Below the pieces are notes generated by a model. That model did not search any database and was not told where the DNA came from. It was given only the letters and a program-made list of their open reading frames with translations. Positions 5,381 through 55,921 of a stretch of DNA of 64,000 bases are shown piece after piece; the first letter of the stretch is position 1, and every line of letters starts with the position of its first letter. The position numbers were made by a program, and so were the translations under genes. This DNA comes from Patagioenas fasciata. Taxonomy: Eukaryota; Chordata; Aves; Columbiformes; Columbidae. The stretch covers positions 84,661,549 to 84,725,548 of the forward strand of contig NC_092560.1 in assembly GCF_037038585.1 (NCBI RefSeq). The letters are read 5' to 3'.

Positions 5381-5500
5381 GTAGCGCACCCTCCTGGGGG
5401 TGTGGAGGGGTTGTGCTGCTTTGGGTGCTTCTTGTGAGGGAAACGGGGTGAAGGGGTCTGCTCGGCCTCTCCTGGGGGTCCTGAGGCCGGTGCCCTATTC

Positions 5501-5714
5501 GGCTCCTCCTCGGCTCCTCCTCGGCTCCTCCTCGGCTCCTCCTCGGCTCCTCCTCGGCTCCTCCTCGGCTCCTCCTCGGCTCCTCCTCGGCTCCTCCTCG
5601 GCTCCTCCTCGGCTCCTCCTCGGCTCCTCCTCGGCTCCTCCTCGGCTCCTCCTCGGCTCCTCCTCGGCTCCTCCTCGGCTCCTCCTCGGCTCCTCCTCGG
5701 CTCCTCCTCGGCTC
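5501..5714 (+). repeat. 11-bp minisatellite (ggctcctcctc)n
   Basis: About 19 head-to-tail copies of ggctcctcctc, essentially without variants. It lies in intron 1 of C18orf54, about 120 bp past the first donor. The minus strand is a purine-rich GGAGGAGCC tract. The unit is not a multiple of three, and the open frame through it is a by-product of the repetition. Confidence 0.95.
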
Positions 5715-6515: not shown

Positions 6516-9500
6516 ATGAGTTCGGGAGAAGAAAGCACCCGCTCTCCTGATTCCACAGTATCTTCTCTTTTAAGAAGCTTTAGCATTGACAGCGCTAATC
6601 CCGGCTCAAACAGTTGGATTCGTTACAAGGACAAGTTCTACAGCTCCGCATCTGAGGCTTTGGAGGCTTATATTGAAGATTTTGATTTAAGTCTCACATC
6701 TCCAGGCGTAAGCACTGGAAAAATCTGCCTGTGTCATAGCACTCCCAAACAGACTGAGTTTTCCAAGCGTCGCGCCAAAGCCAAACGTGGTATGTGATCT
6801 GCAAATGCACCTTTTGATAAGTTGTTTGATTTGGGTTTATTTGTTGCTCTCTGTAAAGCTTTTTTGTAAAAGCTTGGATTGGTGAGAATTCCTGACCACG
6901 CTCATCAATGCGATAATGAGTTATAGAGTATGGAATAAAAGCTTTGTTTTCTCTATCTGAATACATACTAAAGACAATTTAAATCGTTGTTTAAATCTGA
7001 GTCTTGGAAAGAGTAAGTAACATCAGAATCTAATTAATTGAAGGAGTTCCCTTAAAACAAGTTTTACCACTTCTCTTGATTTCTATGGAATGGACTTTAA
7101 GGTGTCTGGACAATGTATATGGGTTTGATTGGCTTTTATCATTATTAATTAGCTTGAATAAATATAGATTTAATTGATTAGATCACTTTTATGAGATGGT
7201 CTAGAATAGATAACTGTGCCTGAGCTAATTTATATTGCAAATTCCTTGTCTGTTATGTCTGAAATAGCAAAGTCCTGGCAAACTTTGTTCTATGAAAGAT
7301 GTAATCTTGTATTTTATTCTGAAATCTTTCTGTTGCTGTTCTTTGCAGAAGTCTCGTTAACTCCATTCACCTATTAACGAGTCTGCATGTATGTTTGATA
7401 TATTATAATAGTCTAAAACACCAATTTCACTCACTGATATTACAGTGAAAGGGAGAAGAATTCACTTCCAGATACTGAGGGAAACTTAATTTCATCAATC
7501 ATAGTTTCAGTTAATTAAAAAAAAAAGGGTTCTAATGGTGGTAATTCTCTCCTGAAAAACTAAGTTTAATCTTCTATGCTATATAAGTTTCTGTAGGGTC
7601 GAAAAATGGGTTTATAGGCCCATTATCTGGCTCCCTGCCTTGCAAGCTGTTGCTTTAGCCATAATTTTTCATGGAAATGTTCATTTTCTATATGGGGAAG
7701 GTCCAGAAGGTTCCCGTGTGGAGGAAGTGTTGCTCCTAGGACTGAAATACTGAAGGCCCCGCTTGCAAACTACACAATTCTGAATGTGCAGCTAAAAATG
7801 GGCTGTAGTGTTGAAGTCCTGGTTCTCTTAAAACACTAAAGAAAATACTCAAAGCTGTGGATGTTGTGTAGGAGGAAAGAGTAAGGTGTTCATCAAGATT
7901 GATTGGTGCATAATTCATGGAAATCTTTGTTTTTCAGCGCTGGGTGACTTCAATCAGCCGGTGGGTTTGGATTCTTGTGCTTCCCCCTCTGGAAGGCAGA
8001 CAGAACATGACCCAGACTCCATCAGTCTCGCAACAGATGATCTGTTGGCATTTCCTACAGACGGGTCGCTGCCTTTTGACCTTTTGAAATCGAGGCATCC
8101 ACGCAGTGCCTGGAACAGCCGGTCGCTTAATACGTCTTGCTGCCCTTACCAAACCTCATCGCTCGATGCCAAAAGCACTTTTGGTCTCCATGAGGATGGG
8201 AAAACTGTTGCTCGTCAGAATCCGCACAAAGACTTGAGCAAAAAGACAGATCGAGTGTCTAAAGCTGATGGGTGCGATGCTGTCGCCTCTAAAGGAAGTT
8301 CCAGACCCTTGTCTTTGGAAGATCATTCTTTTTCCATGAGGAATTACCCGCGGTGGCTCACCAGCCAGAAATCTGCCCTGAGCGTGTCAGGGATAAGCAG
8401 CATCCCTGATTTGCACTACCCAGCCTGGCTCAAGAGTTACAGCCTCTTTCCTGATTCAACTAAAAGCGATGGGCAAAATGTTAACGTACAAGGCAAAGCT
8501 TCCTCTTCACAGACTTCGGAGATCCTGCAAAGAACACACTCTGGAGATCAGGACAGTTCTAATTGTTTTGAACAGAACAGTTGCCAGGATCTAAGAAGTG
8601 ATAATAAACTAGAAGGAAGTTGCAACTCTGATCCAGACACGTGCTTCCCGTTTAATAACTTGTTTTCAAGACGCATCAAAAAGACATTCAGAGGTAATTA
8701 TACTTACTAAAATTTAAAAAGAAAATGGAGGGTATGTGTATAAAATCACATACACTTTTTAAACCAACATTCTCTAGACATGTTAGTCCAGCCACACTGT
8801 ACAGATTTATTCACATCCATCACTGACAAGTGACTCAAAGCACTTACTAGTAGTTGGCTAAGTTAAACAGCTTTTACACTACACGTTTTTGTATATAAAT
8901 CAATATTTAAGCATTCATTTTACAGCCATGGTGGCATATTTAGTACCTCACTGTGAGATAATGACAGTAAATCCATTAATATTTGAATAGCATTTCAAGC
9001 ATTAAATGAAATTACATGAAGCGTAACCTTGGGGGAGGGAGATCCCCGCACGCAGTGTAAATGAACCCGTCAAATTGGTAAGAAATGCTCTTTATCCTGC
9101 AGTTTTTTCCGTACTTTAGAGTCAGCAGGAGGTATTTGTAACCCATATATGTTGGTTATCCAGAGTTTTCAGTGTCTGTAAAGCTTTTCCTTGGGAATTG
9201 CTCTTGGGAAGCAGGGAGGTCCCCCTGTGGTGAAGCACCATCTCTGTGCTCTGAAACAGCAGTGCAATTTGCTTTGATATGAGAGATTAACCTTTCCAAG
9301 TGTTAATTACCTTCCCTTCTAAGTTTACCCAGCTAAAGAGAAAAAGATTCTTTCCTTTGTTATGCAAAGCATTAATATTGATATCTCCCTTTTATAAGCT
9401 AAATTAAGATGTTGTTTATGTTGTGCATTCAAAGTGACAAAATGCCAGATATACAAATGTCTGCAAATGCCTTTTTAGTGTGTATGCATGACAAACTTTA

Positions 9501-12500
9501 AATATAGGGTTATAACTCTTTTTTTCCCCATACAGAAAATGTTACCATTTTGAGCCCTTGTCTCAACCTATATTTGTGTGAGTCCTGTGTGTGATTGTAT
9601 TTTATTTATATATATACATGCAAATCATATATATATATGTTTGCATGATTTCTTTCCCAGGTATCTGTACAAGCAGCTATTAGAAAAACCTCTGCAAAAT
9701 AAGAAAACTAACCAAAGAACTTATAGCATGAATCAATAATATTTAATATTATATTGTGAATTACTTACATTTCCTACAGCATGAATGCAAGGTAAAAACA
9801 CAAAGTAATCTTGAATCTGTTATATAAGTTGGGAAAACAAACTTTTGACTACTGGAAATGCTCTCCTGGCTGGAACGTTGCAGCTCCCAGTTTTTACTGA
9901 TGGTTTCCGTGCCGTACTCCCACACCACGATAACCAAAGGAGTTGTATTGGTGCTGTACTCTCCGTCAAATATTTCCAGTGCTAAGTAATGTGGAAATAA
10001 CGCCCCTGAAGAGGGTCGGACACGTTGTCCTTGTTTTTCAGAAGACCAGCTGGAGTTCCTTACCTCAAAGGCTGACAAAGGTCTGGAGGGTTCAACCCAA
10101 GATGTGTCAGATACCCTGGAAAACGCTGCGAGTCCTTCAACCACAGAAATACTGGGAGCAGAAAGATCATGGGAAAACACTCCAGCTGCTTTGTAAGTGA
10201 AGGTGGAAATGCAGAATGTGTTTAATTGCTTACTGTAGAGATTGTGAGTAATGGGGATGTGGCATGTGTGCAAAGGATTTACGGTTCGAGGTAAGGATAT
10301 TGATGTCAAGGTCAGGATATTGATGCGCTGCTTTCCCTTCTTTATCAACTTGCAAAGAGTTGATTTATATCTCATTGATATACAAAGATGTATTTCAAGA
10401 GAAAAAATATTCAATGGAACCTCAATTGGCAGGTTTAATAGTTTATAAAAAAAAATTAACAGTGGGAAGCCCATTTAAAAAAATACTATATCTTAAACCA
10501 ATCCCTTTAGTTTATAAAGCTGTTATTCTCCATTGGATGTTGGTTTAGTAAAGCACCCGTGCCTGTGTGCTGTGAGGACATGGAGAACGCTCCACCCCTC
10601 CCCAAGGCAGAGATCATCCACAAGTTCCTGGAAGACTGCTTAAATGACAAAAATAAGGTCAGTTAAATGGAGTATTTCTTTGAGACTGCCCCAAATGTAG
10701 ATTAGAGGTGGGGATACCCATAAATTTGTTTTCCTCCTTCTAGAATGTATGAAGTCCAACTGCATTAGTTTAGTCATATTTGAGCACGATGAATCAATGC
10801 AGTTAATAAATCCTATATAACCTAAGTCATAGAAATTATCCTTTAATTGGTTTCAGGGAAGCTAAAAGTTGGTGGCTCTTTTGTTTTGGGGTTATTTGGG
10901 TTTTTTTATGTGCATTCTCAACAGCTGCTTTGGGTTTTGCTTTAGGAAGCCGTTTCTTATGACTATCAGCATCACAGACCCCTTGAAGCTTTGAAGCTGA
11001 TGTTGTTTAAACTTCAAGCAATTCAGGGAAGCTTCAGCCAGAATGAAACTGTCGAGCAAAAGGAAGAATTGGAAAGAGTGAGTAGTCATTTCCTTATGTT
11101 GTATCATGTCCATTTCGGAGAAAAACCCTTAATCCTTTTAATCGACTTGATTTCCAGTCATAGAAAGAGCACTGCCAGTAGATTCAACCCGGTTTGCATC
11201 AGGAGCATGTGCTCAAGGTTTTCCTGCCCTAAATCCCGTGTCTCGCTGCCGTTGGTGCAATGGGAGGCTCTGTGTACGCTGCAGTGTCTCCTGCGTGTAA
11301 CCCCACAGTGGACTCAGCGATGCTGCAAAAAGCCGTTTGTAAACCAGAAGATGGCGACATTTCGGGCAATCCTGCCCAAAGTGCAGCCTCTGCTGCTCTA
11401 GCAATAGCTGTGTTCTGGAAAAAAAAGCTGTTTTCTGTTAATATCCCCATTAACTTTAGGCTTTCAGGGGCATGTACCAAATTTTTTACAAGCCAGACCT
11501 TCTCAAATCCTCTCTCCTTGCCACCTTTGACATCAGTGAGTTGGTATTTTGTGGCACTTTTATTTCAAAATGATTTTATAGACTTTTTTTACAGCTCTCT
11601 TGAAAATGCTCAAGAGGTCTTGGGAGGCACAAGCGTATGAGGAGAAAAGAATGGTGAGGGGAAACCTTCTTGCTCTACAACCACCTAAAAGGAGGTTGGA
11701 GTGAGTTGGGGTTGGTCTCTTCTCCCGATAAGAAGTGACAAGACAAGAGGAAACAGCCTTAAGTGGAGCCAGAGGAGAAGTTTTGCTGTCTCCATCCTGG
11801 AAGGTTTTTGGGATTTGAGCGGATAAAGCCCTGAGCAACTTGCCATAACCTCAAAGCTTCTGGTTCGAGCAGGAACCCAAACCAGAGCTCCCTCCCAACC
11901 CACATTACTTTATGATGCTATAAAGTTGTTGGCGATACTTTCCGATGCAATGTGCTATAAAAACTCTGTATTGTCACGTTCAGTCGCTTTTTCTTCCTTC
12001 AGTTAAGCTTTTTTTTGCTTGTTTTTTGTTGTTTTAAGCTTTCTGGACAAGCAGAGTCTGAATTCAAACTGTGTGCCAGTGAGATAATCCCTCTTACTAA
12101 TTCTATTCAAAAGTAAGTGACCATTGATTTTTCTGACTTCTCACTGTTTTATCATCCTTTTTCTGCACTTCTTGAAGTTAGCTAAGAGTTCTCATATGAT
12201 GTGAAAACTTCGTTAAGAATAAGCCAGTAGCGACTAATTACAACATGACAATTCATGGAGCAAAGAAATATCTGAATGGGTGCAGCGATGTGCTCTGGAA
12301 ATGAACTTTTGTCTTCCATCCATATCAATAGATATGGAAATATTTTGTCCCCTATTTCCCCTATGGGGAAGTAATTGCTAGTGAACATTGATATGCTGTA
12401 TTATGATAATGTTTTACAGTGTTTAACATACCTATTCTGTAATCATTTAATCGGAGCTGTGTGTGTAAGCACCTATATTAGAGAAGTTAAGTTTCAAGAA

Positions 12501-12785
12501 GTGTTGTAGCAATTAGAAAAAGCCTTAGTGCATTTTAGAATCTCTAAAACAGAATAAGTGGAACAGTTAGACTTAGATGTGAACTGTATATAATGTTAAG
12601 CTGTTTGTAAGAAATGACCATTTTGTGTTAAATATAAACAGCAATATATACACTGTGGTTAAAGCTTCCATTTTTCCTGATCTAGGGCTTTACACCATTT
12701 GTCACGTCTCCAAAGTCTTGAAGATAATGGCAACCAACAAGAGCAGACCAGTGATCATGAAGATAAGCAAGAAATGAAAGAATAA
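6516..12785 (+). CDS. C18orf54: C18orf54 / LAS2 (lung adenoma susceptibility protein 2)
   Basis: Seven coding exons: 6516-6789, 7938-8693, 10042-10192, 10549-10657, 10946-11077, 12039-12112, 12686-12785. All splice phases agree (1,1,2,0,0,2) and give 531 residues plus TAA. The first ATG is in the exon after acceptor 6463; an in-frame TAA at 6471 blocks an upstream start. The N-terminus (RSPDSTVSSLLRSFS, SNSWIRYKDKFYSSASEALE, AYIEDFD) is the recognisable LAS2 signature. The large second coding exon is Ser-rich and low in complexity, with a repeated short motif around Trp-Leu (NYPRWLTSQKS, HYPAWLKSYS). The C-terminal exons are acidic and helical (LEALKLMLFKLQAIQ). LAS2 is poorly characterised; in mouse it is linked to lung tumour susceptibility. 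Position next to STARD6 supports the call. No frameshift seen. Confidence 0.92.
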
Positions 12786-16800: not shown

Positions 16801-17408
16801 TTCCTAGAAGTACGTAATAAAATATAAAATACATCAAGGAAATAAGGAGGGGAAGAATTACAAACAGCTCTCACCTCGTTGGGCATTTCCTAGGTATTTA
16901 GGTCCATTGTGGGAGGGTGAAACTGAACAGTTCTGTCGCAGCAAGAGAGATTTAGGCTTGTTAAAAGCTTTTTAACAGTGACATGTAAGCAGGAAAAAGG
17001 GTTGCCAAAGAAGTTCTAGAAGCTCAACCGTTGTAAGAGTATTACACAACCAGGCAAAGCTGTTATTTGAGTATCTTGAGCCCTTAGCATCGGTGAAGGA
17101 GCTATATCTGCTTTCTTTTCCAAAGCATTTGGTGGTTCGGGCTCTGTCTCATTGTCACGTTGTGTCTTGGGGTTCATGTGGTACGTGAATGATGTGAAGT
17201 CTGCATGTGGGAATTGTCAGACTTTGCTGTTGTAGTTTAGTAAAGAGGTTTTCCTGTATTGCGTCACATTTCTGCACAAGGGTACTTCACTAAATATTAG
17301 CGTTGCTGTGCAGAAGAGCATGAGTCACTTCCCTGGACTCTGACATAACTGAGCACCTATCAGAATTAACATTCTTTTGGTTGTTTTCTGCGGCCTAATC
17401 TATTTCAG
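13801..17408. other. Intergenic; AT-rich, no gene seen
   Basis: AT-rich sequence between C18orf54 and the cupin gene. It holds an (AT)n run at 15769-15791. Any upstream non-coding exon or promoter of the cupin gene should be here, but none could be recognised. Confidence 0.5.
15769..15791. repeat. (AT)n microsatellite
   Basis: Uninterrupted AT dinucleotide run of about 23 bp. Confidence 0.9.
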
Positions 17409-17417
17409 CTTCACTAA

Positions 17418-20400
17418 ATGGATAACCAGGCATTCGAAATGCACGGAGAGAACCTACGAAGCGCTTCCCAGGGAAAACAGTGGCCCCAGAAAGAGGTACC
17501 AGTCATTGCCTTTTACATCATTACAGAGCCAACCCTTGGTTTATAATATAACCTAATCCTATATTATTAAGAGAGTCTTGGAGAAAATAAAATCTCTGAA
17601 GAGCTATAACTGTGAAGGTCCTAAAATACAAACTCCACATTCACCAGCTCAGATTTGAACTGTGAGACATAATTCCCTGGCCCCACTTAATAACTAAAAT
17701 CTTTATCCCGTAGCTACTGGACTAAGTAATTACCTTTGGAGGATTCCCCATTGATTTTAACAGAAAGAGCTACTTAAAAGGTCATCTTGTGGTAACATTT
17801 AATATCTCTACGTAGTTACACATGAGTTTCACCTTTTTTTGCCCTGGAGAAAAGTAATTTGGATTTTCCCAGTCAAGTTTTTACTTCTTGGGACTTGAAT
17901 TGACTTCACGTGGTAAGAGTTGGCGTATCGCTCATCCCCTGTTACAGTTGTTTGCCATCAGTGCTGCTTCTTGGCTATAAATACACCGAGGGCAGCGATT
18001 TCCTCCCGACATAACTCGCTGTATAACGTATCGTTATGGAATATGTGCAGCATCCTTTCTACTGGAAAACTAATTAGTGGATTGGTGCTGCCGCTGTGAA
18101 AATGCTGGAAATTAAAGGTCCTTCAAATCTGGTCCTCAGTGTTTTGTCCCACGGCCTAGAAACAGCAATGAAAAACAACTTGAAGTGCGTGTTAGATCTA
18201 ATAAAGCTCTCTTTTGTTTTTAATTCAGGAAAGAAAGGGCGGCTGGTCCCTGATGAAAGTCTTTCTGGTTTGCCTGTTGGCCTGTGTGATCACCACGGCG
18301 ATCGGGGTGCTGATCCTGTCCTTGGTTTATGTGAATAACCCTCCTTTTGTGAGAGGCACCGATGGCGGAGACAACGGAGCATCTTCCCTGAACCCAGAGG
18401 AGAAAAGCGTGGATGTCAAATTCCAGTTCCTGAATCACCTGGGAAAATCAAAGGTGAAGGCATCTTTGCTGTGTGCTTCTCAAATCGGAGTGTGAAATGC
18501 TGAGAAACAAAACCAGAGTAGCACACAGACCTTTTCATTCTTAGGACGGGATTCAAACAGAACCAGAGTAGCACGCAGACCTTTTCATTCTTAGGACGGG
18601 ATTCAAACAGGTTCTGATGTTGCTATTCAAAATGAACTCCAGGATATTGCTTCAGTGAGCTGAAATGGATTGATTGCCAATGGAATGGAGCCCTAGGAGT
18701 TCTGTAGGTTTTGTTGAGGTGTATTTTGGTACTTATAGAAACATTGGACCAAACTGAATACATGCTCAATCTTCTAAAGATATCTTTATATAAAAACAAT
18801 CCCTGATTAAGGGAAAAGGGTAGATTAAATAGTAGGGTATTTCAAACTGACAACACACTTATGTTTGCTTTAGCTTTGCCATTCACTTTCAAACAATGCT
18901 TTGAAGAAAGCAAACACAAGTGTTTAAGCGGAGAGCAACGCTTTTTGTTTTCCTCGGTACAAGGGGATTCTTGCAAGTGCAAAATATATTCTACAGGAAG
19001 TAGGAAAATTGGGGAAGGGACAGATTTGCAGCCATAGACGTTCAGTTTATGTTTTGAATCTCAAAGTTTAAGGATATACAGAACTGACTTCCCAAATCAA
19101 AGTCCAGAATGATGGAAAAGAGGAGCAGATGATTTTGTTCCTGATATTGCTGTTTATCTCTTGTAGAAAAAATATCATTACAGCATGACATCAGAAAGTA
19201 TAGAAATGATTGTGAGAAGCAAGTAAAATACATAGAGAGGGAATCCTCGCTGAGAAAAGGAATAGGTGGTTTCAGTGACCCACAATTAATCCAATTCTCC
19301 ATAACTCTCCAGGTATATACCTACCCGGGTGGTGAAATTCAGTGGGCAAGATTCAGGAATGACGTAAATGAATATCTGAGTGATGAAGAAATGGCGTTTG
19401 GCAAAAGCATCAATAACCATCGCTCCAAAATGACTTTTGGAACCTTACGGATCAAGAGCAACGGGCTTCGGGCTCCCCACTGGCATTTTAATGCCAACGA
19501 GCATGGCTATCTGGTGCAGGTATTATCTCATTAGCTCAGCTTTATTAATTGCTTTTGCCGTTTAGAGCATCATGTATATATAGAAAATGTCCATACATAA
19601 AAAAGATGACATATACATTAAATACAAATGTTAACAGGTAATAAAAGCAGAACTATTGATTGATTGATTAGTTTCCTTGCTTGAAATAACATTTTCAACT
19701 GGAAATGCTCAAAATAGGCTGTTCGATGTTATTTGTGAGAGGAACAAACACCTGTAGATTCCAATGAAAATAAAACCTGAGGTCAGAGGAGATTTTGGAC
19801 ACCTTAAAGTGACAGAAGTTTATGTACTTATCCAAGTGCTTGCAGTGATTTCAGGAATTGTTATTATAGAGCTATCATAGAATCACAGAGATTAAGGACT
19901 CTGAAGGTTCTGAAGAAATTTGAAACCAAAATGATCTTTCTTTGGAAGCATAGGTGCTTCCAAATATCTCAATCATTAGCTTATTTCTAAGAATAATTAT
20001 TAATATTTTGATTTTGGTCAAAGATGATTCCTTTATAGCTGCTCACAGCCTCTTGAGTACGAAATGGTTCAAGTCCAAGCCATGTGTGTTTGCCACGTGT
20101 TCCTCAAACCTTCTAAAACGTTGTCAATTCTGGATTTCAAGTCGCAAAGAGAGCGTGTCAGGATCTGTTTTCCCCTAAGAACCTTCAGCTTATTCAAATT
20201 TGCAATATTGATTAAATGAGAGAATGTTAATTAGCATGGTTAAGTTCTGGTTCTGTTCCAGGGCACCGCCTGGGTGGGAGTGATCGGCCCAGATGACAGC
20301 GTGGTCACCACGTACAACGTCACGGCCGGCCAGGTCATCTTCTTCCCCAGAAACACCGTGCACTGGATCAAGAACGTCGGGCCGGACGACTGCCTGTTCT

Positions 20401-23328
20401 TGCTGTTTTTCACAACGCACGAAGAGCTTCAGACCTTAGATGTAGATGATGCCTTTTTCTCCACCCCAGAGGACATTGCAGCTCGAGCGCTTCAGGTCTG
20501 TATGATCGGATAGAGCTAGGATTCTATACATTAACATGACTCTATATGTTGTAGGGAGGATCCTCCCTATCTCAGCTGTGTCCATGTCCTTTGTGTCACA
20601 CTGGGCCACCCTGTGTGTTCATTAATACACAAGGAGAAATAAATGATGATGCTCTCTCCAATAAACACATTTTCCCCTCCACTCTCCATATTTATTCCCA
20701 ATTCATGGCGGATCCTCCATATTTCCAATGAGGAAGGGAAAATAAGTGAAGCCCAAAGCAAATTTCCCAATAGCCCTTTGTGGTATGAGAAGATCTTATC
20801 GGAGACTAAGTTCATCTCCTTGTTAAAATGGATCGTATTTGAACCGAGTAATTAGTGTGTCCCATGAGCAAGAATATGCCCGCAGTTTCTGCTGAGACTG
20901 AGGGATGTGCATGTTCAAAGCACAAAGTTGCGATAGACCATCCCACCCCCAAAAATTGGATGGGAGAGGATGGAGTTTCCCTTCTGCTCCAAATTTCTGT
21001 GCTGAGAAGGAAGGGCAGAGCAGAGGAGCGAAATATTGATGGGGTAAGGGAATGAAAGAGCTTTGTCCACAAGGCAGAATTTCAGGGATATTCAATGAAG
21101 CAAAGTTTTAATGACAGTTTGTGTGTATCTGTTGCATTAATGTGTGTTTTGTGTCCCGCAGCCACAAGGTGGAGTCAACTTCATCAGAACCTTCAAGAAA
21201 CAAGCAGAAGATCAAGCGATTAACCTCCCATCAAACTTAAACGAGCTGGTACAAAATGCCACCTACGTGCAGTCTCCAGACAACCTTGTGTGGCAATACT
21301 TCTATGATCTTAAAGGTATAGATGCATATAGAATTGTGTGTGAGAGCTCTTGGCGCTTCTAGAGCGGGAGAGTAGTCGATTCATTCAAACAGGACTTAAA
21401 AAAATAGAGAGAGAAATGATGAGAAAATATCTTGGTATTATATCTAATGGCTCCTAAGCAATAACCTAAATCTAAACTTGGCAGAAATTAACATTTAACA
21501 GGCCAGGAAGCTCTGCAGCAATTTAATTGGAGACTGATTAGTGCTGAGTTTATTAGAATACTTTGTGTTTCCATGTGAAACTTCAATGAATAAACACCTC
21601 ATTATGTCCTCGCTTTTCTTTTACAAATACAACTTCATAAACAGCATTGAGCCACATTCACTGGGTGGTTTATCGAGAATGATATTAAACAACGCTGCAT
21701 ACAACCTGGATCTAGTGATTATCAGTGAGCACCTATGAAACACAGATGGCAAACTTAATTTCAAGTAGCACAATTAATTCTAAAAGCTATAAAAAGCAAA
21801 TATGGGTCTGGAGCTCCACACAGAGCTGATAGAGCTTGTGAGGAGTAAATGTGGACCAAAGTGTTCTGCTGCACAAAATATTGTGGCACACAATCAGGTT
21901 AAGATGAATTAATATACTTAATATAACATGAATTAATATACTTCAAGTGTGTTGCTACTGATTGTGATTTGGGATGGAGAAAATGGCCTTGGAGTTTTGC
22001 ATTATGGTTGTTTGACCACAGAAAAATAGGTCAGCTAAATGGGATTCGTTTTGGGCTGGTAAGATTTAAGGCCTTTAGTACATAGTAATGATTTGAAGTT
22101 GGCCAATGCAAGCGGTGTTAAACCTGGTTGAAAATGCGATGTCTTTGTTTTAGGGTCAGCAGAATACCCCTTCCCAGGAGGAATCTTCCAGTGGGCTCGT
22201 TACCGCATCAATGGCACCGGACTTAACGAAACGGAAAGAATCTTCAGCGAGTCGCTGAACAAGGTACGTGCTTCCAATGGGTACCGGAGCTATTTAAACC
22301 CAAGGCCCACGATGCGATTTGTGTCGTATATAACAAATGTAGGCAATTCTGAGTGGTTTTGCTCTGCTTTTCAGCACGAAAACACCCTGACGTTGGCAAC
22401 CCTGCGCATCTTCAGCAATGGGCTGGGGCAGCCGCACTTCCACTTCAACGCTAACGAGATGGGTTATGTCATTAGCGGCTGCGGGCAGGTAATTGGTGAC
22501 ATGGGTGAGGGAGAAGATGGTAAAACAATTACAGACCTAATGGTTCCCAACCTCAATTAATAATACTCCAATTAGTAGTATTACAGAACTTTGTAGAAGG
22601 AAAGTGAGGATACAAATAAAATGTTGATCTCAGTTACATTTTTCAGCTGCTTCAGCAAAATCCCACGTGCTTGGGAGCACAAAATACAATAGAAACACTT
22701 GATTTAGTGCCTCTGAGGAACAGATAGAGAAAATATAGTAAGTATTAAGATTTAGAGAACAGGATTTGATGATGTTTTGCACTCAGTGCAGATTTGAAGT
22801 GCCAAGATAATTGAGGTGGAATGATGAGACTTCACACTGTGAGGGTTAATGTGGGATTGGGGTCTCAGTGCAAACGCTGATTCTCCGCTATCTGCAGCCG
22901 TCACTGCGTATTTATCCACTATCAGCACACTGAAAATGGTTGAATATTGATCCTTTCATTGCAATAGGTCGGAGTTATTCTCTCCGGAGTCACCGCCAGC
23001 TTCAACATCGGCATCGGAGACGTCATCTTCTTCCCTGTCGGAACCCAACATTACATCAAGAGCGTGTGCGATGAGGATTTATTATTGATTTTAGCCTACA
23101 GCACGGGAAACCAGGTGAGAATCCATATGAGCAAGAGGAGTAAATTATCCAGCTGTCCATAATGTTGTAGAAATTGCTAGGAATGCTGTGATTTTTCTCT
23201 CTAAAATCACATCTTTTTCCTCCTAGCTGGAAACCCTTCGCATGAACGACTATTTCCGCAGAACCGCAGATCACATCCTCGCTCAGCTTTTTTTCAAGGA
23301 ACAGGCCGAGTTTAAGAACTTCCCCTAA
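17418..23328 (+). CDS. Membrane-anchored double-cupin protein (DYNAP-locus bicupin)
   Basis: Nine coding exons: 17418-17495, 18229-18453, 19313-19519, 20262-20495, 21162-21315, 22154-22263, 22375-22488, 22968-23114, 23227-23328. All phases agree; 456 residues plus TAA. Residues 1-36 are hydrophilic (MDNQAFEMHGENLRS start, ERKGG before the membrane). Residues 37-61 form one hydrophobic segment (KVFLVCLLACVITTAIGVLI, then LSLVYV). Two cupin domains follow. Domain 1 has PHWHFNANEHGYLVQG (H157, H159, E164) and GQVIFFPRNTVHWIKN (H204). Domain 2 has PHFHFNANEMGYVISG (H357, H359, E364) and GDVIFFPVGTQHYIKS (H402). This is the Mn/Fe-binding His3Glu set of germins, oxalate decarboxylases and Physarum spherulin 2. 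N-glycosylation sequons NVT, NAT, NGT and NET sit after the membrane segment, consistent with type II topology and an extracellular or luminal enzyme. The acceptor before the first coding exon implies a non-coding upstream exon. Substrate is unknown. Confidence 0.93.
17975..17983 (+). promoter_or_regulatory. TATA-like box upstream of the membrane-anchor exon
   Basis: CTATAAATA inside intron 1 of the cupin gene, about 250 bp before exon 2. A transcript from here could retain the sequence before exon 2 or splice differently. The first in-frame ATG would be 18253, giving a protein that starts directly at the hydrophobic segment. This is inference; AT-rich introns produce such boxes by chance. 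Confidence 0.3.
18511..18610 (+). repeat. 50-bp tandem duplication in cupin intron 2
   Basis: 18511-18560 and 18561-18610 are identical except for one A/G difference (gcacacagac versus gcacgcagac). It is a recent local duplication. Confidence 0.95.
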
Positions 23329-23469
23329 AAATGAAGCTCACGACCTCTCTCAGCACCAAACGGCTCCAGGAAAGTTCATATGATCACCGTGTTGCTAATT
23401 ATAAAAAGCTATTTTCTCTTTTGTATTTATACAGTGTTTTATTTATAGTGCAATGTAATTTGATTGTAT

Positions 23470-23475
23470 ATTAAA
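23470..23475 (+). promoter_or_regulatory. Poly(A) signal of the double-cupin gene
   Basis: ATTAAA 141 bp after the stop codon, followed by a T/G-rich stretch (ctcttgctctgtgt), giving a short 3'UTR. Confidence 0.6.
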
Positions 23476-23490
23476 GTACTTTCTCCAGTT

Positions 23491-25079
23491 AAATTGCCTC
23501 TTGCTCTGTGTACCATCAGCCCCTGTCTCTGCTGGAGCTGACATTGATTTAATCACGGACACGCCGCTCTTTTCCAACAGCATCTATACAGCAAAAACCT
23601 TCAATTTGTTTAATTCAGGCTCAGGTTTAAACCAGTTCAGCTGGCCCAAGGTTGGTTTAAATGTTCTGAGATGCTCTGTAGGAGGTTTAGGGGTGCCCGT
23701 TGGATAGGGGAGATCTTTATATGAGATGAAGAAAGGGACACATCAAGCTGTGAATATCTAGCTTGTGAGCCCAGATCTTTGCATATGTGCTACAAGGAAA
23801 ATGTTTCCCATAGACTTTAGCAACCTACTTAAATTTAATAATAAAGCTAATTTAGACTGACAAGCAGGGGCGTTCAGGTACCATCCCTTTTCCCATAGTC
23901 TGGGCCCATTTCGGTATAGATATCTTAGTCCAGGCTTAAACCCCAGACTTGGCAAGTGGGGTGAGAATGTTAGCGACCTGAGATGTGTCACTGTCACTTA
24001 TCAATCCCTAATCAAATAACTGTTGCTTTGTGCCTCCAAATCAATCAGGTTAAGAGCCATTCCAGGGTCTTAATACAGGATGATTTAATAATTAAACCTG
24101 CTCTGTGCATCCCTTATGGTGAGTTTTATAGACCCCAAAGGACAAAAGGAAATTTCCTGTGGTTTATTGCGTGTTCTTGTCACCGCCAGGTTGGAAACAT
24201 TGCGAAATCCTTGATTTTTGCCAAAACAAACGGGGCCAAACGGAAAATCCGGCCCCAACCAACCTGTGATGAGTCAGTACTGATGCATCTTTTGTAGACA
24301 AGCCAGGCTTTGTTGGACCCGAGGTTTTGATGGCCGCATGGCTGGAAATAGCCCGTTTTATGGGTGGCATCCCATCATAGTCCAGGTTATGGAGCCGGGG
24401 ACTTCCCAGCACGCTTGGAGGTTCCCGCCGAGTCCTTTGTGGTTAATGGGCAAATATTTGTTTTTTGTAAGAAAATGGGTTTTTTAGTGATTGTGCATTT
24501 TTCAGTGCGTTCATTTTGGAAATAATACAGAGTTAAACAAATGATAAACTGCTTGTGCTTTATAGAACAGGAACCCTGGGACAGCACTGAGCGCTGGGGG
24601 GCTCCTGCAGCCCTTGGCACCCCAGTTTGGCCCCGGTGTCCCCGCACTGGCCCAACTGGTGTTGCCCAGGAGCACCAGCGGCTCATAAACTCCTTCCCAC
24701 CAAATCTGAGGGATGCGATGAGCTGCTTGTCCCTGTCCTGGCCCATGAGGAGGGTGAGAAGAGGGAAAATCAACAGGAAAATGAGTCCTGAGCAGCTCGC
24801 GAGGGAGAAGCAAATCAATTATTAATGTGCATTTGAGGAGAAGGTTAAACGAGCTCTCGAGTCTGCTGTGAGGTGACTTTTGCTCAGTAAAGCTCACCCT
24901 TGGTGTTCACGAGAGACACCAAGGAAAACAGGGCTGGGGGGGACAAAGAGAATTATCTTCAACTTCTCCTTATTCTTGCAATTAAAACATTGCACATCAC
25001 TGAGGGAAATCTGGGACTGGTCAGGGCTTTGGGTTATGTTTTCTGATCGAGCTCCTTTTTCTGATGGAGCTCAAAGCAT
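23491..25079. other. Intergenic; nothing recognised
   Basis: No coding exon was identified. Moderately repetitive-looking sequence at 23760-24440 did not match an element family I can name. The open frames here have no family features. Confidence 0.4.
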
Positions 25080-43329: not shown

Positions 43330-46300
43330 ATGACTGATGGAGACTACGATTACCTGATCAAACTCCTGGCCCTCGGGGACTCTGGGGTTGGGAAAACAAC
43401 GTTCCTGTACCGATACACCGATAACAAGTTTAATCCCAAATTCATCACGACGGTAGGGATAGACTTCCGGGAAAAACGAGTGGTGAGTTGTCCATGTCTC
43501 ATCTTTCTCTATTCGTTTATTCTGTGAACGCATTTGATGCAATATTGCTTCTCTTAGTGCGGGTTTAGCCTGTGATAATGGGTTGTCTGGTCTAGTTTTT
43601 GGCTTAATTATGAACTCTGGATTAAGGGGCCCAAATATAGAATTTAAATAGATGCACAATGAGGTTCCACCAGCTCATCACCTGAGTCAAATAATTACTA
43701 ATTACTGATTTTTCCACTCTTGACATTTTGGGGTATAAATTATAAGTGCAGGAGAAACTACATCTTACATGGGCTTACCAGCCTTGAAATGACTTAAAGG
43801 TCTAATGAATTATGTTGTAAGCAAGTGATCCAAAAGGTTAAATATGTTGTTCTGCTATGTAAAAGTCACATTAAAAATGACTCTGTGAGATACCTTGTTG
43901 ATCGCGCTAAATATTACAGGCACACGTAATATTTAATTCACACACCTGGTGCGGTTGATCCATTGATTTTCACAGCTGATTTAACATCATTAGGAGCAGC
44001 CTCTGGAGTGGTTTTAGAGGCCAGAGTTGCCTTTTACTGAAGGGCAGAACTTATAACTCATCGCTGGTGCGAAGTGGAAGGTTTTGGGGGTTTGGTGTGA
44101 CCGGTACCTCTCTCGGTAGGTCTACAACCGCCAGGGACCGAATGGATCTCCAGGAAAGGCCTTCAAGGTCCATCTCCAGCTCTGGGACACGGCCGGCCAG
44201 GAAAGGTAACCACCTTCAGCTCCGTGCAAAACACCCCCCGCTTTTTCACTTTTTGGGGTATTTTCAGGTGGAAAATAGAGTTTTTCCGATGCTGTGCTCA
44301 GAGGAGCTCGGGAAACAAGACTGGAAGAACCGAGGGTGATGTGCTCCGCGCCTCGTGCCCGCACACGCGGGTTATTAGTTAATATTGGGTTTATAATACC
44401 TTCCTAAGCTCTGGAAGATACACAGAACCTACCTAAGCGCCTCGTGCTTGTATTTCACATTTTTGGGTAAGGCAGGTTCTGATTAATTTGGATGAAGCCG
44501 TCAGGTTATTCCCCTTTAAGCAGCAAAACTGTAATGGCTTGTTAAGGGTTTTGATTGCGGGTGAGAATAAACCGTGAAATTCAGCCCAGGCGATAGGGAT
44601 GGAAAGAAGGACAGAGAGAAGAGAGTTGGAAAAATTGGAAGTGTTTTATTAATGCTATTGATAAAATACAGAAAATAATAGAAAATATATGAAACCAATC
44701 TTGAAAATCTCAGCAACTACAGAGCTGGCAGCCAAAGTCCTGGACTGGACTCTGCAGCCAATGGAACTGGACTCAGTCTGTCATTAGGCCCCAGTTTGCA
44801 GGGACGACTCGCAAGGTCCTCTCCTCATGTCGGCCATAGGGAAAAGGGACGAGATCCTCGTGATCTCCCACTTTTATACGAAATATTCGCGTGAATGGGA
44901 TGTTATACACAGTTGGTCAGGTTCTGATCCCCTGTTCCTCGTTGCCCCTCTTGCGAGATGTCCATCCATGCTTATCAATGACATTGCATTGCTATGTCTA
45001 CCAAAACATGGATCTGGTTCTCCAGGAGAATGCAGCTCATATGAAGCTTGAGCTGACAGGCAAATTCACTACAAGAGAAACTTGGTTTTAACCAAACCAG
45101 GCCGTGGCTTTAATTTTCCTTCTCACAGCCCGACCGCCCAGCACCCTCCTTTGCAGGATTATTTTCTCTAATCGCTCGCTCCCATCCTGTGCGTGCGCAG
45201 TTGTTTGTTCTTCCCAAGGACCTTCTTGACTTTTGGCTATTGAATTTCATCCTGTTATTTTCCTAACGGGAGGAGTGCGTGTTCTGCTTCCTCAAGCTTC
45301 CCCTGCCTAGTTACATACACTGGTTTCGCTCTTAGAGAGTGAGGGGCACCCTTTTTACCTTAAACCCTCCAAGTCATGTCCCCAGCTCAAGAAAGCGCTT
45401 TTTTCTTTGAAATCTGCGTGGATTTGTGGCATAAAATATCAATATATTTCTTTTCTTTCACCCAACCCTTCTCTGCTTTGCTGTTGATTCAATCAGGCAG
45501 AATTTGAACTAATAGATTAGTCACTGGCCGTGCTTATGTTCTCACATATAAACTTCCTCGGGTCGATTACTAACACACTGATTCATAAGCGTGGATGCAT
45601 CAGAGCCAGAATTAAAGTCCAGAATTAATGTTGGGTTTACTTCCTAAACTTAGTTCAGCAAAGCTGCGCTCTATATGATGTTAATAGAGCCGCGTTGTCT
45701 TTCCTCTCCCACCCTCAGGTTCCGAAGCCTCACCACCGCGTTCTTCAGAGACGCCATGGGCTTCTTACTCATGTTCGACCTCACCAGCCAGCAGAGCTTC
45801 TTAAATGTCAGGAACTGGATGAGTAAGTAGAACCTTAGCGCTGGGCTTGTGTATTTTGGGCTGCCAGGCTCCGTGTGGTTGTGAGCTGGAAAACGCTCAA
45901 AGAAAGCCGTTGTGTCTAATGTGTCTAATTTGGGGTGAAGGCTTCATCAAATTGGATGATACATGCTCCTATTTTATTTTGCACGATAGACTGTGTTGGG
46001 TGTATTCTTGATAATCCTAATAATCCGAGGATGTGGCTTGAAAGCCCCCAAAGAAATGCGTTTGGCGTGTGGTTAGTTGAGGTTATTTAGAGGTGGGGAG
46101 CAAGAATTGATTGAATCGATTAATTTGGAATTATTTTGTCAACAATCTTGGTCTCCAAGGCGCTTCCAACGTTCTCTTATCTCCTCATCTTTGCTTCCAG
46201 GTCAGCTGCAAGCCAACGCATATTGTGAGAATCCAGATATCGTCTTAATTGGCAATAAAGCTGATTTATCAGACCAAAGGGAGGTAAACGAGAGGCAAGC

Positions 46301-47474
46301 GAAGGACCTGGCAGACAAATACGGGTGAGTAAATAGTGACAGAAGGTAAATTGAGTCTGTAACTAAGTGTAGTTGGTGATACTTGGACAAAACACTCATA
46401 AATTCCAAGACTTGTAGGCACTGCGGTATCACGGTGATAGTGAAACCCAGCTTGTCACGTTTTCCCATCAACTTGCTTAAACAGGAAACAGGTAGAACAA
46501 AACACCCTGTTCTAGTAGTTTGGCCCAAATCCATGGGAAATAAGGCTGAAATCAAACATTCTTATTAGAAAACTCCATTTTTCGCTTGTCCTGCGAGTTC
46601 AGGCCAAAATACCAAAGGCAGCTGCACACTCAGTGCCATGAACCAGATAACTAACAGTATTTATAGCTTGATTTCTAGTTAGTTTGGACACCTGTGGATT
46701 TTGGTCAGGTTCTAAGCAGCGCTGAGTTTATTTAGTTATAGATAATAAAGCTGTTAATGGCCTTTTTCTTATTCTAGTGAGGCTTCTATGTTTATTTGCA
46801 CTAATAACCGCAAAAAATGGCTCTGTGATATAGTCAGTAAATCATTTTTTGGGCAAAAAGAGGGTGTATTTTTGTCCTTAGTTGCCCTTATTGGGCAGCG
46901 AGGGATGTTCAGAGAGAGTTGGGCCTGCGAAACTATGGGGAGAAATAAGCAAATCAGGCTTAAAAACACTGAAAGATTATTAAAGAGTTGTCTGCGGCCA
47001 AGCAAGGAGCAATTAGTTTGTGCCGAATTTCATTGCTGAAACTATTTGTAACCTTCTCTTTTGAAAAAGGTGACAATATTATGGATTTAAGGGCGTTTGT
47101 GGTGATGCGACCGTGATATCGAGCTCAGAATGCCAGGATAGGTTTGAGCTTGGGTTCTGCCAGATAGAGACCAAAACTCAGCCCCGTTCGCTCTATGGCC
47201 ACCAAACCCACCGCACCGCGAGTAGAACAAAGACTCTTGGTTGGCCTAAAAGTCCCTCCGGTAAAGCTTTTCCTGTCTCCGTAGCATCCCGTACTTCGAG
47301 ACGAGCGCCGCCACCGGGCAGCACGTGGAGAAGGCCGTGGCCACGCTGCTGGACTTGATCATGAAGCGCATGGAGCAGTGCGTGGACAAACCGCCCGGCG
47401 CCGACGCCGCCAACGGCGCCGGCTCCGCCAAGCTGGATCCGGCCAAAGCGGAGGAGAAGAGATGCGCCTGCTGA
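43330..47474 (+). CDS. RAB27B: RAB27B, small GTPase
   Basis: RAB27B is a Rab GTPase that docks secretory vesicles, lysosome-related organelles and exosome-producing compartments through Slp/Slac2/Munc13-4 effectors. Five coding exons: 43330-43482, 44120-44205, 45719-45822, 46201-46324, 47285-47474, with phases 0,2,1,2. They give 218 residues, equal to the human protein. Motifs: [20 protein letters not shown] start, P-loop GDSGVGKT (16-23), switch [15 protein letters not shown] (73-79), NKAD (133-136), ETSAA, and a C-terminal CAC for double geranylgeranylation. The body is nearly identical to mammalian RAB27B. The C-terminal hypervariable part is Ala/Gly/Pro-rich ([20 protein letters not shown]) and encoded by very GC-rich sequence, unlike the human linker. 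RAB27A is less likely given the exon 1-2 sequence and the CCDC68 neighbour. Confidence 0.97.
44556..45099 (-). mobile_element. Solo LTR of an avian ERVL-like endogenous retrovirus (fossil)
   Basis: About 540 bp in a RAB27B intron, antisense to the gene. On the minus strand it shows LTR parts in order: a TATA box (tataaaag) near 44873-44880, a poly(A) signal in agcattaataaaacacttcc near 44640-44660, and a pyrimidine-rich R/U5-like stretch (caactctcttctctctgtcc). The terminal dinucleotides fit TG...CA, but the ends are approximate and no target duplication was confirmed. No internal genes flank it, so it is a recombined solo LTR and a broken fossil, probably tens of millions of years old. Confidence 0.65.
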
Positions 47475-52165: not shown

Positions 52166-55100
52166 TCACTCTGTCCAGACGCCTTTGGAAACCATAGTCT
52201 TGGACTTTCCAGACCAGAACTCCACTCTGTCTTTCAGTTCTTTATTCTGCAAGGAAAAAGAAGTTAGAAAATCAACCAAACCCCTCTCAGCAGCTGCTCC
52301 TCCACAAAGGGTTTTGGGGGGTTTGGGTGGATATTTTTGTGCTTCACCTGTGCTTCCAGTGCAGTCAGCTTCTCGGTCAGGTCCTCTATCCTTTTATCTT
52401 GGCTTTTGAGTTCCTTGTTCAGTTCTTCTGCCTGAGGGGTAGGAAATCAAACCTTGTGAGAGATTTGAAACCTTAAAAACATCAAAAATATCTCCATGTT
52501 GAGAAAAAACACAGAGCTGAGGGTATCGTGACAACAGGGTAAGTGCAGACCATCCAAGTCCCTGGTCTTTGACCATGTTGATGAATGGATTTGCCGTAAT
52601 TGATTGAGCTGCCCTCCTGGATGATCATATTGATTAATTGATGTACCATAACTGATTGAGCTGACCTCCTGGATGACCATATTGATCAACCAATTGGCCA
52701 TAACTGATGGAGCTGACCTCCTGGATGACCATATTGCTTAACCAATTGGCCATAACTGATCAAGCTGACCTCCTGGATGACCATATTGATTAATTGATTG
52801 GCCATAACCAATGGAGCTGACCTCCTGGATGACCATATTGATTAATTGATTGGCCATAACCCATGGAGCTGATCTCCTGGATGACCATACTGATCAACCA
52901 ATTGGCCATAACCAATGGAGCTGGCCTCCTGGATGACCATATTGATCAACCAATTGGCCATAACCAATGGAGGTGACCTCCTGGATGACCATATTGATCA
53001 ACCAATTGGCCATAACCGATTGTGCTGATCTCCTGGATGACCATACTGATGAACCGATTGGCCATAATGGATGGAGCTGACCTCCTGGATGACGGCGCGC
53101 AGGCCGTGCTGCTGGGCCTGGATGAGGCGCTGCAGGTGACAGATCTGCTCCCGCAGGGTGACAATCTGCTGCTCCACGTCCCAGCACCTGCGGGCAGAGC
53201 GGCGTCAGTCTGGATCCTTCACCCACCCGCATTGCTGGTGAGGATAAATAACTCTTAATTCATACACGTATAAAGCACAACAAATAAAACCATAGTCTGA
53301 AATGTGTTTTGCCTGGTAGGACCTCCCTTATTAGTTGTCAATGAATAAATCCATAATAATGGCTGTTGCCTTTTCTACCTCACATAAAACATCACCGAAA
53401 CAGTGTCGAATTCAAGCAAGAATAGTGCAATTAGTGCAGGCAAGGTGGAATAGATTTTGATTGGAAAAGTCCTTTAAGATCGAGTCCAACCATTAACCCA
53501 CCCCTGGCACTGCCCCATGTCCTGAGAACCTCATCTGTGTGTATTTCCAACCCCTCCAGGGACGGTGACTCCAGCACTGCCCTGGGCAGCCTGTTCCAAT
53601 GCCCAACAACCATTCCCATGAAGAAATGTTTCCTAATATCCAATTTAAACCTAGCAGTTCAAATAGAATCAACATCTAAGTGCTGCAGGACATGAACATC
53701 AAGAAATCACAGTAAATCACTCTTTGACCCACTTGCTGTCATCAAGAGTAATCTCACTACCAGAAGGAAATGATTCTCTGGTAGCCTATGTGGAATAATC
53801 CCCCTAGAAAGAAAGAAAAGCACTTTCTATCACATGCATTGAGTCACCGTTTGCTGTCTTCATTCCTCGCCATCATCTGGTGAAGCGTCTTTTCAAATGA
53901 CGTCTTCTTCTCTATCAGCGTTTGCTTTTCCTAAAGAAACCGAATGGAAAAGTTATAACACGCTTCCTACCATTGGGTGAGAAGTTTGGCCGTAGGTTCT
54001 GCAAACAGAATTCCCCAATAAGCACCTCCATCAACATCAGTTCTGGGTACAAACCAGTCTGACCTCTGCAATTGAATCCAAAAGGGGTGACTGTATGGCC
54101 AAAGTCCATATTGTGTTAAAATCGCACTTCTCGCTTTTACTTAATGACCAAAATTATGAGCATCCGGGCAGGGAACACCGTGTTACTGCTACATTGGCCA
54201 TAATTGATGGAGCTGACTTCCTGCATGACCAAACAACATCCACACCCATCACTTCCAACACATTTTCCAATATCTGAGGGTAAAAGGAGCGGTTTTTACT
54301 ATTGGGATGGCGAGGTTTTCATTTCAAGGTGAAATAGCAACTGAACACAATGAATTCCTCGCCCGCTCCCGGGATGGACGGACACGCAGACAGATGGACA
54401 GACGGACCTCCTGCATCCTCCGCACGCGCGTCTCCATCTCCGCGATGCGGCTGCATCGGTCCCTGACGCTTTCGGCGAGGCGGGCGCTGTTTTGGGAGCT
54501 TTGCCGGAGCTTCGCTTCGTGCTGGAGATTGTGGGTCTGCAACAAGAAGGGAATTAACTGGGCTTTGCTGGGATGGGGCTCAAGGGATTTCAAACCAATT
54601 CTACTTCTCCTAAATCGAAGTTTGCAGCGCAAAGAGCCGGACCCAGGGGAAATATTATGATCCTGAACATGGTCATGGCCACACAGGGGGAGATTTGTAC
54701 CTGGATTTGCTGCTTCTCATCCTCGTGGCTTTTTCTCTGCTGTTCCGAGCGCGCCTGGTAATTCTCGTACAGCTTTTGGGAGGCGGATCTGAGGGCTTGT
54801 ACACCCGCTTCTCTCGTGGCTTCCAGCTGCAAAGAGCAATTGTACCATATATATATATATGTATATATAGCTTTACAAAATGAGGTTGTAACCACATGCT
54901 GAATAAGCCCTCTATACAAAATAAATATCAGTATTTACCCTTGTCAAAACCAAATGGATTGAGCAAGCACCAGGTTGCAGCAGCCAGGACACAACGCTAA
55001 AGAACTGTGCTGCAAGGCACAGGTATTTGTCCAAAACCCTCCAAACCCAACCCAAAACGCACCTTGATCTTCAGCACTTGGTTCTCCCTGCTCACCAGCA

Positions 55101-55921
55101 GCAGCTGCTCCTCGGTTTCCTTCAGCGTCGTGGCCACGGGGCTGCGGTTCCAGCGGCTGCACCGCGGCTCCGGCGCCTCCCCCGGCACCTGCTCCAGGAA
55201 ATATTGAGATATATTTAGAAATAATATGAGAAACAGCTCAGGCGATGGAGCTGGCTCGGCAAGACTCTGCTGCTTTGTAAAAAAGAACTTTGCGCAATTG
55301 ATTATTTGTTAATTATCCCCATCGCATCCTCCTGTCTCCCACCCCACAGCGCTCTTTTGGGATGGGGAAAAACGGCTTTTGCGCATTGCTGAGAGCGAAG
55401 AAATGAGCCATCAGATGGACTGGGCCGTCTCAGTGCTCACAACACCTCTCACGGGAGAAAAATATAAGGAAATGGTATATCCAACCTATTTGGGGTGGTG
55501 TCGGCGTCAAGCAGGACACGGCGTCTCCAGGGTCACCACCACCACCATACTTTAATTGTTTCTTGGGAATGATTTGGGTTATGAGGCGCTTAAGAATTCG
55601 TTGTAAAGTTATGGTAGCTTCGTAAATTTAATTGTAAAGGGAATGAAGAGATCTTATAGAAAGCAAACGTTGGAGGGGTTCTCTTTGCCATGGCGGACAT
55701 TAAAATCATTAACTAAGCTCCGTTCTTCCTGCTTTTCCTCCGGCGTTCAGGGAAGCAACAACCCCAGAGTATTTCAGGTATTGGAAAGAGCACGGAGATA
55801 CCTTCTTGACGTATTCGGCCTCCTGGGTGAGCTGGGAGCAGGAGGAGCCGTAGAGGACGAGCTCCCCCTGGGCGCCGCGGTCCTGCCGGCTGAGGTGCTG
55901 CGTCAGCAGCAGCGTGGTCAT
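52166..55921 (-). CDS. CCDC68: CCDC68, coiled-coil protein (centriole subdistal appendage)
   Basis: CCDC68 works with CCDC120 at centriole subdistal appendages in microtubule anchoring. Minus-strand coding exons: 55921-55802 (start; MTTLLLTQHLSRQDRG... ending EAEYVKK), 55188-55063 (KETEEQLLLVSRENQVLKIK), 54826-54701 (LEATREAGVQALRSASQKLY then ENYQARSE), 54536-54408 (AKLRQSSQ...ETRVRRMQE), 53930-53848, 53187-53082 (QIVTLREQICHLQRLIQAQH), 52431-52348 (KSQDKRIEDLTEKLTALEAQ), 52246-52166 (NKELKDRVEFWSGKSKTMVS, stop TGA). Phases agree, 284 residues. Each exon aligns with human CCDC68 (335 residues). The human segment after EYVKK (IRTTLQKIR..., about 35 residues) was not found between 55802 and 55188. 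The last exon ends before the human C-terminus; a GTGAGT overlapping the stop could splice to an unseen exon. Heptad-rich throughout. Confidence 0.9.
52614..53089 (-). repeat. 52-bp minisatellite copying the CCDC68 exon-intron junction
   Basis: ctcctgg recurs at 52614, 52666, 52718, 52770, 52822, 52874, 52926, 52978, 53030 and 53082, exactly 52 bp apart. The last copy is the true junction: on the minus strand the exon ends ATCCAGGAG and the intron starts GTCAGC (donor 53081-53080). So the array consists of the last bases of the exon plus the first part of the intron, repeated nine more times into the intron. GT is kept in the copies at 52666, 52718, 52770, 52822 and 52978; the others have GG, AT or GC at that place. 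Confidence 0.95.
53450..53690 (-). mobile_element. CR1 LINE 3' fragment
   Basis: Antisense CR1 3' end (gattggaaaagtcctttaag, then gatcgagtccaaccattaac) followed by the CCTGGGCAGCCTGTTCCAAT block. It lies in a CCDC68 intron. Confidence 0.88.
54193..54230 (-). repeat. Stray copy of the 52-bp unit in another CCDC68 intron
   Basis: attggccataattgatggag then ctgacttcctgcatgacc matches about 38 bp of the junction minisatellite, but lies in the intron between the exons at 54408 and 53930. Confidence 0.8.
54843..54930. repeat. Duplicated intron segment, copy A
   Basis: A short (TA)n run followed by gaggttgtaaccacatgctg and aagccctctatacaaaata. The same unit recurs at 56395-56480. Confidence 0.85.

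Follow-up and report, generated by a model that had tools for sequence, protein, structure and literature searches.

A membrane-anchored vertebrate bicupin with two non-equivalent putative metal sites, encoded beside RAB27B at the probable locus of human DYNAP

Metal-binding domains of the cupin kind are familiar mainly from bacterial and plant proteins, and, to our knowledge, few bicupins are known from vertebrates. The gene described here, which lies at 17418-23328 on the + strand of a 64,000-nucleotide stretch of vertebrate DNA, probably from a bird (hereinafter the window; contig C48, positions 84661549-84725548), encodes a bicupin with a membrane segment near its N-terminus and raises the question of what such a protein might do in a vertebrate and to which known genes it might correspond. 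Among the matches listed in searches of the open-access literature (titles and the beginnings of abstracts), there was no vertebrate bicupin of this build and, among the matches listed, nothing joining a cupin to DYNAP (dynactin-associated protein, C18orf26), the human protein with which the locus is compared below; predicted entries for a protein of this kind may well exist in the sequence databases. The best explanation that we can offer, and one that we hold with roughly as much confidence as doubt, is that this is a functional, single-copy gene for a type II glycoprotein, that the DYNAP locus would be present here in complete form, and that its product would be a metalloenzyme working at one of its two sites. 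If this is true, the intact protein would be an unrecognized Mn- or Fe-dependent enzyme at the Golgi or cell surface in vertebrates, one of its cupin sites being active and the other purely structural.

Gene structure and membrane topology

Nine exons on the + strand, separated by eight introns that are all of the GT..AG type, join into a single open frame of 456 residues. An intact nine-exon gene had been proposed in the first-pass annotation, and on re-deriving its exon coordinates we recovered the same exons, introns and frame. Exons 1-8 end in phase 0, save for exon 5, which ends in phase 1. The first coding exon (17418..17495) supplies a 26-residue N-terminus that we take as cytoplasmic, and exon 2 (18229..18453) encodes a membrane segment with the CLLAC motif (residues 32-60) and then a stalk up to residue 101. 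The first cupin is divided between exon 3 (19313..19519), which carries its first half with R154, H157, H159 and E164, and exon 4 (20262..20495), which carries its second half with H204 and a short acidic lid (H223-E225). Exon 5 (21162..21315) encodes the inter-cupin linker; the second cupin starts in exon 6 (22154..22263; glycosylation sequons N319 and N324) and continues through exon 7 (22375..22488; G354, H357, H359 and E364) and exon 8 (22968..23114; H402), with the C-terminus and the stop codon in exon 9 (23227..23328). At the 5′ end, a TAA stands in frame directly before the ATG, the start context is weak (T at -3), and an acceptor-like TTTCAG ends 9 bases 5′ of the ATG, which makes an upstream non-coding exon likely. 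At the 3′ end, ATTAAA occurs at 23470, 142 bases past the stop codon. Intron 6 (22264-22374) is itself in frame and stop-free over its 111 bases (open frame 22132-22560); its retention would add 37 residues to cupin 2, about 20 residues before the first metal ligand of that domain.

The most hydrophobic 19-residue stretch of the protein starts at residue 37 (mean 2.90), and the next, which starts at residue 377 within cupin 2, reaches a mean of only 1.65, in agreement with the earlier claim of a single N-terminal membrane segment. Likewise, the four sequons that had been placed on its C-terminal side are found at residues 189, 280, 319 and 324. The balance of Lys+Arg minus Asp+Glu, 0 over residues 1-35 as against -2 over residues 61-95, leans weakly toward an N-terminus on the inside. 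Sequence profile searches matched the membrane segment to the Pfam CLLAC-motif domain (PF15675), a hydrophobic domain of 30 positions, both with the whole protein (9.4e-16) and with the N-terminal 101 residues alone (1.3e-16; 60.3 bits, above the gathering score of 25). From the membrane segment, the positions of the sequons and the comparison with DYNAP presented below, we infer that the bicupin is a type II membrane protein.

Two cupin domains with complete but unequal putative metal sites

The domain matches of this protein lie well beyond what chance would give. The Pfam Cupin_1 profile (PF00190) matched two stretches of the protein (3.1e-35; 121.4 bits against a gathering score of 22), with 74.1 and 52.9 bits when each half was searched alone; Cupin_2 and Polysacc_synt_C also scored above their Pfam cut-offs. 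In phmmer searches of the PDB, oxalate decarboxylases matched both cupins, the best at 8.9e-17, and the best 14 matches were all oxalate decarboxylases or their close kin. Both halves display the HxHx(3-4)E motif and distal histidine at the spacing seen in OxdC (Bacillus subtilis): HxHx4E lies at 157-164 and 357-364 and the distal histidines at 204 and 402, so spaced that the E-to-H distance is 40 at site 1 and 38 at site 2, next to 39 in OxdC. The domains are paired crosswise by phmmer (window cupin 1 with the second cupin of OxdC, window cupin 2 with the first) and straight by MAFFT (cupin 1 with cupin 1, cupin 2 with cupin 2); under either pairing, the HxHx4E ligands of each site fall on OxdC ligands. 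The two cupins of the window protein are 46% identical when aligned with each other, and in a translated comparison exon 3 resembles the start of cupin 2 at 51% and exon 4 its end at 38%, which indicates that the pair arose by internal duplication.

Across 84 aligned relatives (see below), the columns of H157/H159/E164/H204 and the Arg corresponding to R154 are kept in 84/84 and those of H357/H359/E364/H402 in 83/84 (one gap), counts that are inflated because the Arg and His columns went in part into the patterns used for retrieval. At site 2, G354 stands where 83/84 of the relatives have Arg (one gap), a count less affected by this bias, though not free of it; the contrast between R154 and G354 within the window protein is independent of it. 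In OxdC, each cupin has an Arg at the third position ahead of its first His (R92 and R270, PDB chain numbering), with a role in substrate binding. The two full sets of ligands described in the first-pass annotation do align with the solved oxalate decarboxylases over the two Cupin_1 stretches; its picture of two metal sites holds as to the completeness of both, but the sites are not equivalent, site 2 being without the Arg.

Mn or Fe would be expected at both sites; we would place the chemistry at site 1, with R154 available to bind a carboxylate, and assign a structural role to site 2, where the Arg is gone. Under the mechanism that we propose, a short cytoplasmic tail and the CLLAC anchor would tether a bicupin that faces the extracellular space or the Golgi lumen. 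Cupin 1 would bind Mn or Fe on H157/H159/E164/H204, and R154, perhaps together with the lid acids E224/E225, would act on a small carboxylate in the manner of a decarboxylase or an oxidase. In cupin 2, the metal on H357/H359/E364/H402 would serve structure alone. Oxalate would be a possible substrate, though not a favored one given the changed lid. For the capacity of the fold, the PDB match 2vqa offers a precedent: its protein, SLL1358, is presumably MncA. This cyanobacterial cupin is described as a Mn oxalate decarboxylase (PMC11742986), which shows that the fold with these ligands is capable of such chemistry.

The main rival to catalysis at site 1, a minority reading in our estimation but one with real weight, is that the protein is a metal-binding, non-catalytic bicupin, serving in binding, adhesion or storage at the surface or in secreted form and keeping both metals for stability, much as seed globulins retain the fold but no enzyme activity. 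Such a role would fit the Arg-less site 2, a lid with neither the length nor the sequence of that of OxdC, and the presence of 11S seed globulins among the PDB matches (3ehk, prunin, 1.9e-8); it fits less well with a site 1 that has the Arg of all 84 aligned relatives and with ligand sets that are complete at both sites, whereas storage globulins have usually lost their metal ligands.

Gene neighborhood and the probable correspondence to human DYNAP

Downstream of the bicupin gene lies RAB27B (43330..47474, + strand), whose five coding exons splice into a protein that matches Rab-27B (PDB 2iez, 9.7e-126) ahead of Rab-27A (3.4e-101). Upstream lies a C18orf54/LAS2-like gene of several exons (6516..12785, + strand), the model of which is approximate: its 508 residues match Pfam LAS2, the sole Pfam family at E up to 0.1, with an E of 0.0027 and 18.4 bits, below the 27-bit cut-off, and four separate pieces of the gene gave no Pfam match. 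Further downstream, on the - strand, there are coiled-coil pieces (54593..55308) that possibly belong to CCDC68, which we take them to represent; four pieces from this area matched no Pfam family above cut-off. STARD6 and POLI were also considered for the sequence beyond the window and were set aside, the flanking open frames being too noisy for naming.

Several repeats accompany these genes. A perfect tandem array of TCGGCTCCTCC (5499-5714; 19.6 copies, 100%) lies upstream of the LAS2-like gene, and two arrays with 18- and 19-base units (35446-35989 and 40316-40680; 30 and 19 copies, respectively) lie in the interval between the bicupin gene and RAB27B, which is GC-richer there. A long AT-rich low-complexity stretch (56099-56832) is found just past the putative CCDC68 pieces, and a layered tandem array with periods of 22, 45 and 224 at 58866-59557.

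In a human table that we take as gene order, the succession is MBD2, SNORA37, POLI, STARD6, C18orf54, DYNAP, RAB27B, CCDC68 and TCF4; the same paper reports a chromosome 18 inversion that breaks DYNAP and TCF4 and takes in RAB27B and CCDC68, which lie between them (PMC4868023). Set beside it, the order in the window (the LAS2-like gene, by a weak match, then the bicupin gene, then RAB27B) would place the bicupin in the slot of human DYNAP, clearly so on the RAB27B side and probably so on the C18orf54 side.

DYNAP is reported to cross the membrane once, in type II orientation, at the Golgi and plasma membrane, with its C-terminus outside; its membrane region and tail are coded by its last exon (PMC8329785). 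It has 210 residues, an S/T-rich outer tail and one possible N-glycosylation site, and its physiological function was stated to be unknown in 2015 (PMC4540312); PMC9550069, which gives it only as a table entry, was not drawn on. Like DYNAP, the window protein would be a single-pass type II protein, and the two would share the CLLAC segment: a provisional version of the human DYNAP segment matches the CLLAC profile at 1.3e-18, in agreement with the gene position, and we treat this match as a lead, not as proof. Unlike DYNAP, the window protein has 456 residues and carries two cupins in the place of the S/T-rich outer tail of the roughly 210-residue human protein, for which the passages of the cited papers used here mention no cupin. 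Exon 2, which encodes the membrane segment, ends in phase 0, and read-through past its donor reaches a stop after 13 codons. Were splicing at this donor lost, the product would therefore be a short type II protein resembling DYNAP. The first-pass annotation had missed both the identity of the membrane segment as a CLLAC domain and the placement of the gene in the DYNAP slot.

Taken at the level of sequence and position, DYNAP, a human protein that has been studied in its own right, probably corresponds to the bicupin gene, though without its cupins, and we infer that it amounts to the bicupin gene minus those domains. On the sequence side, this link depends on a hydrophobic domain of 30 positions and a provisional human sequence. 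We regard it as an evenly poised proposition that the human oncoprotein DYNAP is what truncation has left of a bicupin metalloenzyme tethered to the membrane, which this lineage, probably of birds, and perhaps other vertebrates keep whole: mammals would have lost the cupin exons, and DYNAP would have kept the anchor and the cytoplasmic tail. The reverse direction may also be considered, in which the cupins were joined to an old DYNAP, a gain instead of a mammalian loss. If the link to DYNAP holds, it would account for where a gene of humans came from that in 2015 was described as having an unknown physiological function (PMC4540312), suggest that the cytoplasmic tail of DYNAP once served an ectoenzyme, and make the function of DYNAP testable in species that retain the whole protein. 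It would likewise point to a metal-dependent step that mammals no longer have.

It is improbable, in our view, that the bicupin is unrelated to DYNAP and came by chance to lie beside RAB27B with a similar membrane segment. The CLLAC domain comprises just 30 hydrophobic positions, the human segment is provisional and the LAS2 match is weak, all of which would suit a coincidence; against this, the gene occupies the same slot by RAB27B and probably by C18orf54, the CLLAC match exceeds its cut-off by a wide margin (60 against 25 bits), and tail, membrane segment and outer part follow one another in a similar order, as predicted for the window protein and as given for DYNAP in the passages cited above.

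Relationship to oxalate decarboxylases and prokaryotic bicupins

Exact peptide patterns taken from the window sequence alone matched 5 stretches, with no relative among them. Patterns based on an alignment retrieved at least 576 confirmed relatives, and the best 80 of these, which were used here, share 23-30% identity with the window protein (29% being the highest in the tree set). The 84 aligned relatives comprise 80 genome-contig loci and 3 viral-contig loci (L016-L098) together with the plasmid protein P0001; by a mechanical rule, each was taken to begin at the earliest Met in its open frame. P0002 and P0003 were excluded from this alignment and used only in two other alignments. Identities of only 23-30% give no sign of a recent transfer, and neither these nor the 35-38% of the short plasmid matches are high enough for carrying over a substrate. 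The viral-contig relatives give no clue to origin: of the 3, one is identical and two are near-identical to a protein from an enterobacterium that the tree also includes.

The lid of cupin 1 distinguishes two groups. Its span is 25 residues in the window protein, 24 in 8 relatives and 27 in 76/84, and the 27-residue lids are mostly SENST-like among the rows printed. E225 falls on a column with Glu in 73/84 and Asp in 8, an assignment that depends on gap placement, and it equals E162 of OxdC only under the chosen gap and the straight cupin pairing of MAFFT. E162 is the catalytic Glu of the SENST-type lid in OxdC. In the tree, the window protein and the 8 short-lid relatives are split from the other 76 with support of 100/99; the window branch is 4.14 long and carries a long-branch warning, and only the split is used, with no sister group assigned. 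The short-lid prokaryotic bicupins come from Chlamydiota (4: L023, L052, L063 and L069), Nitrososphaerota (3: L016, L064 and L088) and Alicyclobacillus (1: L086). Besides their nearly equal lid span (24 against 25) and their place on the same side of the split, they share with the window protein a PHWH followed by P-N-A-N/A/S-E; unlike it, they have Arg at both sites. Two of them, L016 and L023, are 26-29% identical to the window protein.

Among characterized proteins, OxdC and SLL1358/MncA resemble the window protein in having two cupins, each with HxHx(3-4)E...H. In both, an Arg occupies the position three ahead of the first His, a feature of oxalate decarboxylases at both sites that is present in the window protein as R154 at site 1 only, with G354 at site 2; relative to them, the window protein also has a membrane anchor added, a shorter lid and a score below the curated cut-off of TIGR03404, the NCBIfam oxalate decarboxylase bicupin family (133.2 against 254.2 bits). 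Germin (oxalate oxidase 1), which has the same ligand set in a single cupin and is secreted, gave a cupin match of 1e-5 (PDB 1fi2). By its description, the insect "spherulin-2A"/Yp4 yolk protein subunit might be set beside these, an animal protein named as a relative of Physarum spherulin-2A in a paper on butterfly eggs (PMC3654919).

With a TIGR03404 score below cut-off, a short lid and no Arg at site 2, the likeness to OxdC is one of domains and ligands, not of family: the bicupin has the build of an oxalate decarboxylase, yet lies outside that family by the tests made. In the same way, the oxalate decarboxylase geometry recognized in the first-pass annotation carries over for the domains and metal ligands and fails for family membership. 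It is quite unlikely that vertebrates acquired a canonical oxalate decarboxylase here, even though the best 14 PDB matches (from 8.9e-17, over both cupins) are such enzymes or close kin and plasmid-borne proteins annotated as "oxalate decarboxylase family bicupin" match across 65% of the protein (among the plasmid matches, short ones of 65-74 residues have 35-38% identity): the deficit of some half of the TIGR03404 cut-off, the lid span of 25 against 27 in 76/84 relatives and the 100/99 split, which is to be read with the very long window branch and its warning, all argue against it.

Copy number and constraint

A tblastn search of the window with the whole protein found no second bicupin; besides the gene itself, there was one 19-residue match (E 1.0). 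A Cupin_1 search of the whole genome (1.45 Gb, 359 contigs) gave 2 hits, one in exon 4 and the other in the counterpart on contig C47. Because the search takes exons singly and did not register the remaining cupin exons of the bicupin gene itself, a divergent paralogue could escape it; the bicupin is likely to be single copy. The surroundings of the C47 counterpart are about 98-99% identical to the window over the 40 kb compared. Between the two copies, over 17301-23600, 1/1371 coding bases differ (a silent change at 20474) against 38/4929 other bases, counting substitutions only and leaving out bases inserted in the C47 copy. Coding bases thus differ some ten times less often than the rest (binomial p 2.9e-4; Fisher 1.4e-3), and on this evidence, modest but real, the gene is probably under constraint. 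That it is a recent pseudogene or an unexpressed relic, for which the weak start context (T at -3) might speak, is very improbable, given a frame and splice sites that are intact in both copies and the ten-fold deficit of coding differences.

On C48 (85.9 Mb), about 1.2 Mb separate the window from one end of the contig; on C47 (70.5 Mb), the counterpart is reversed and is found about 1.2 Mb in from the start. C48 and C47 are candidates either for homologous haplotypes or for the shared end of a Z/W pair.
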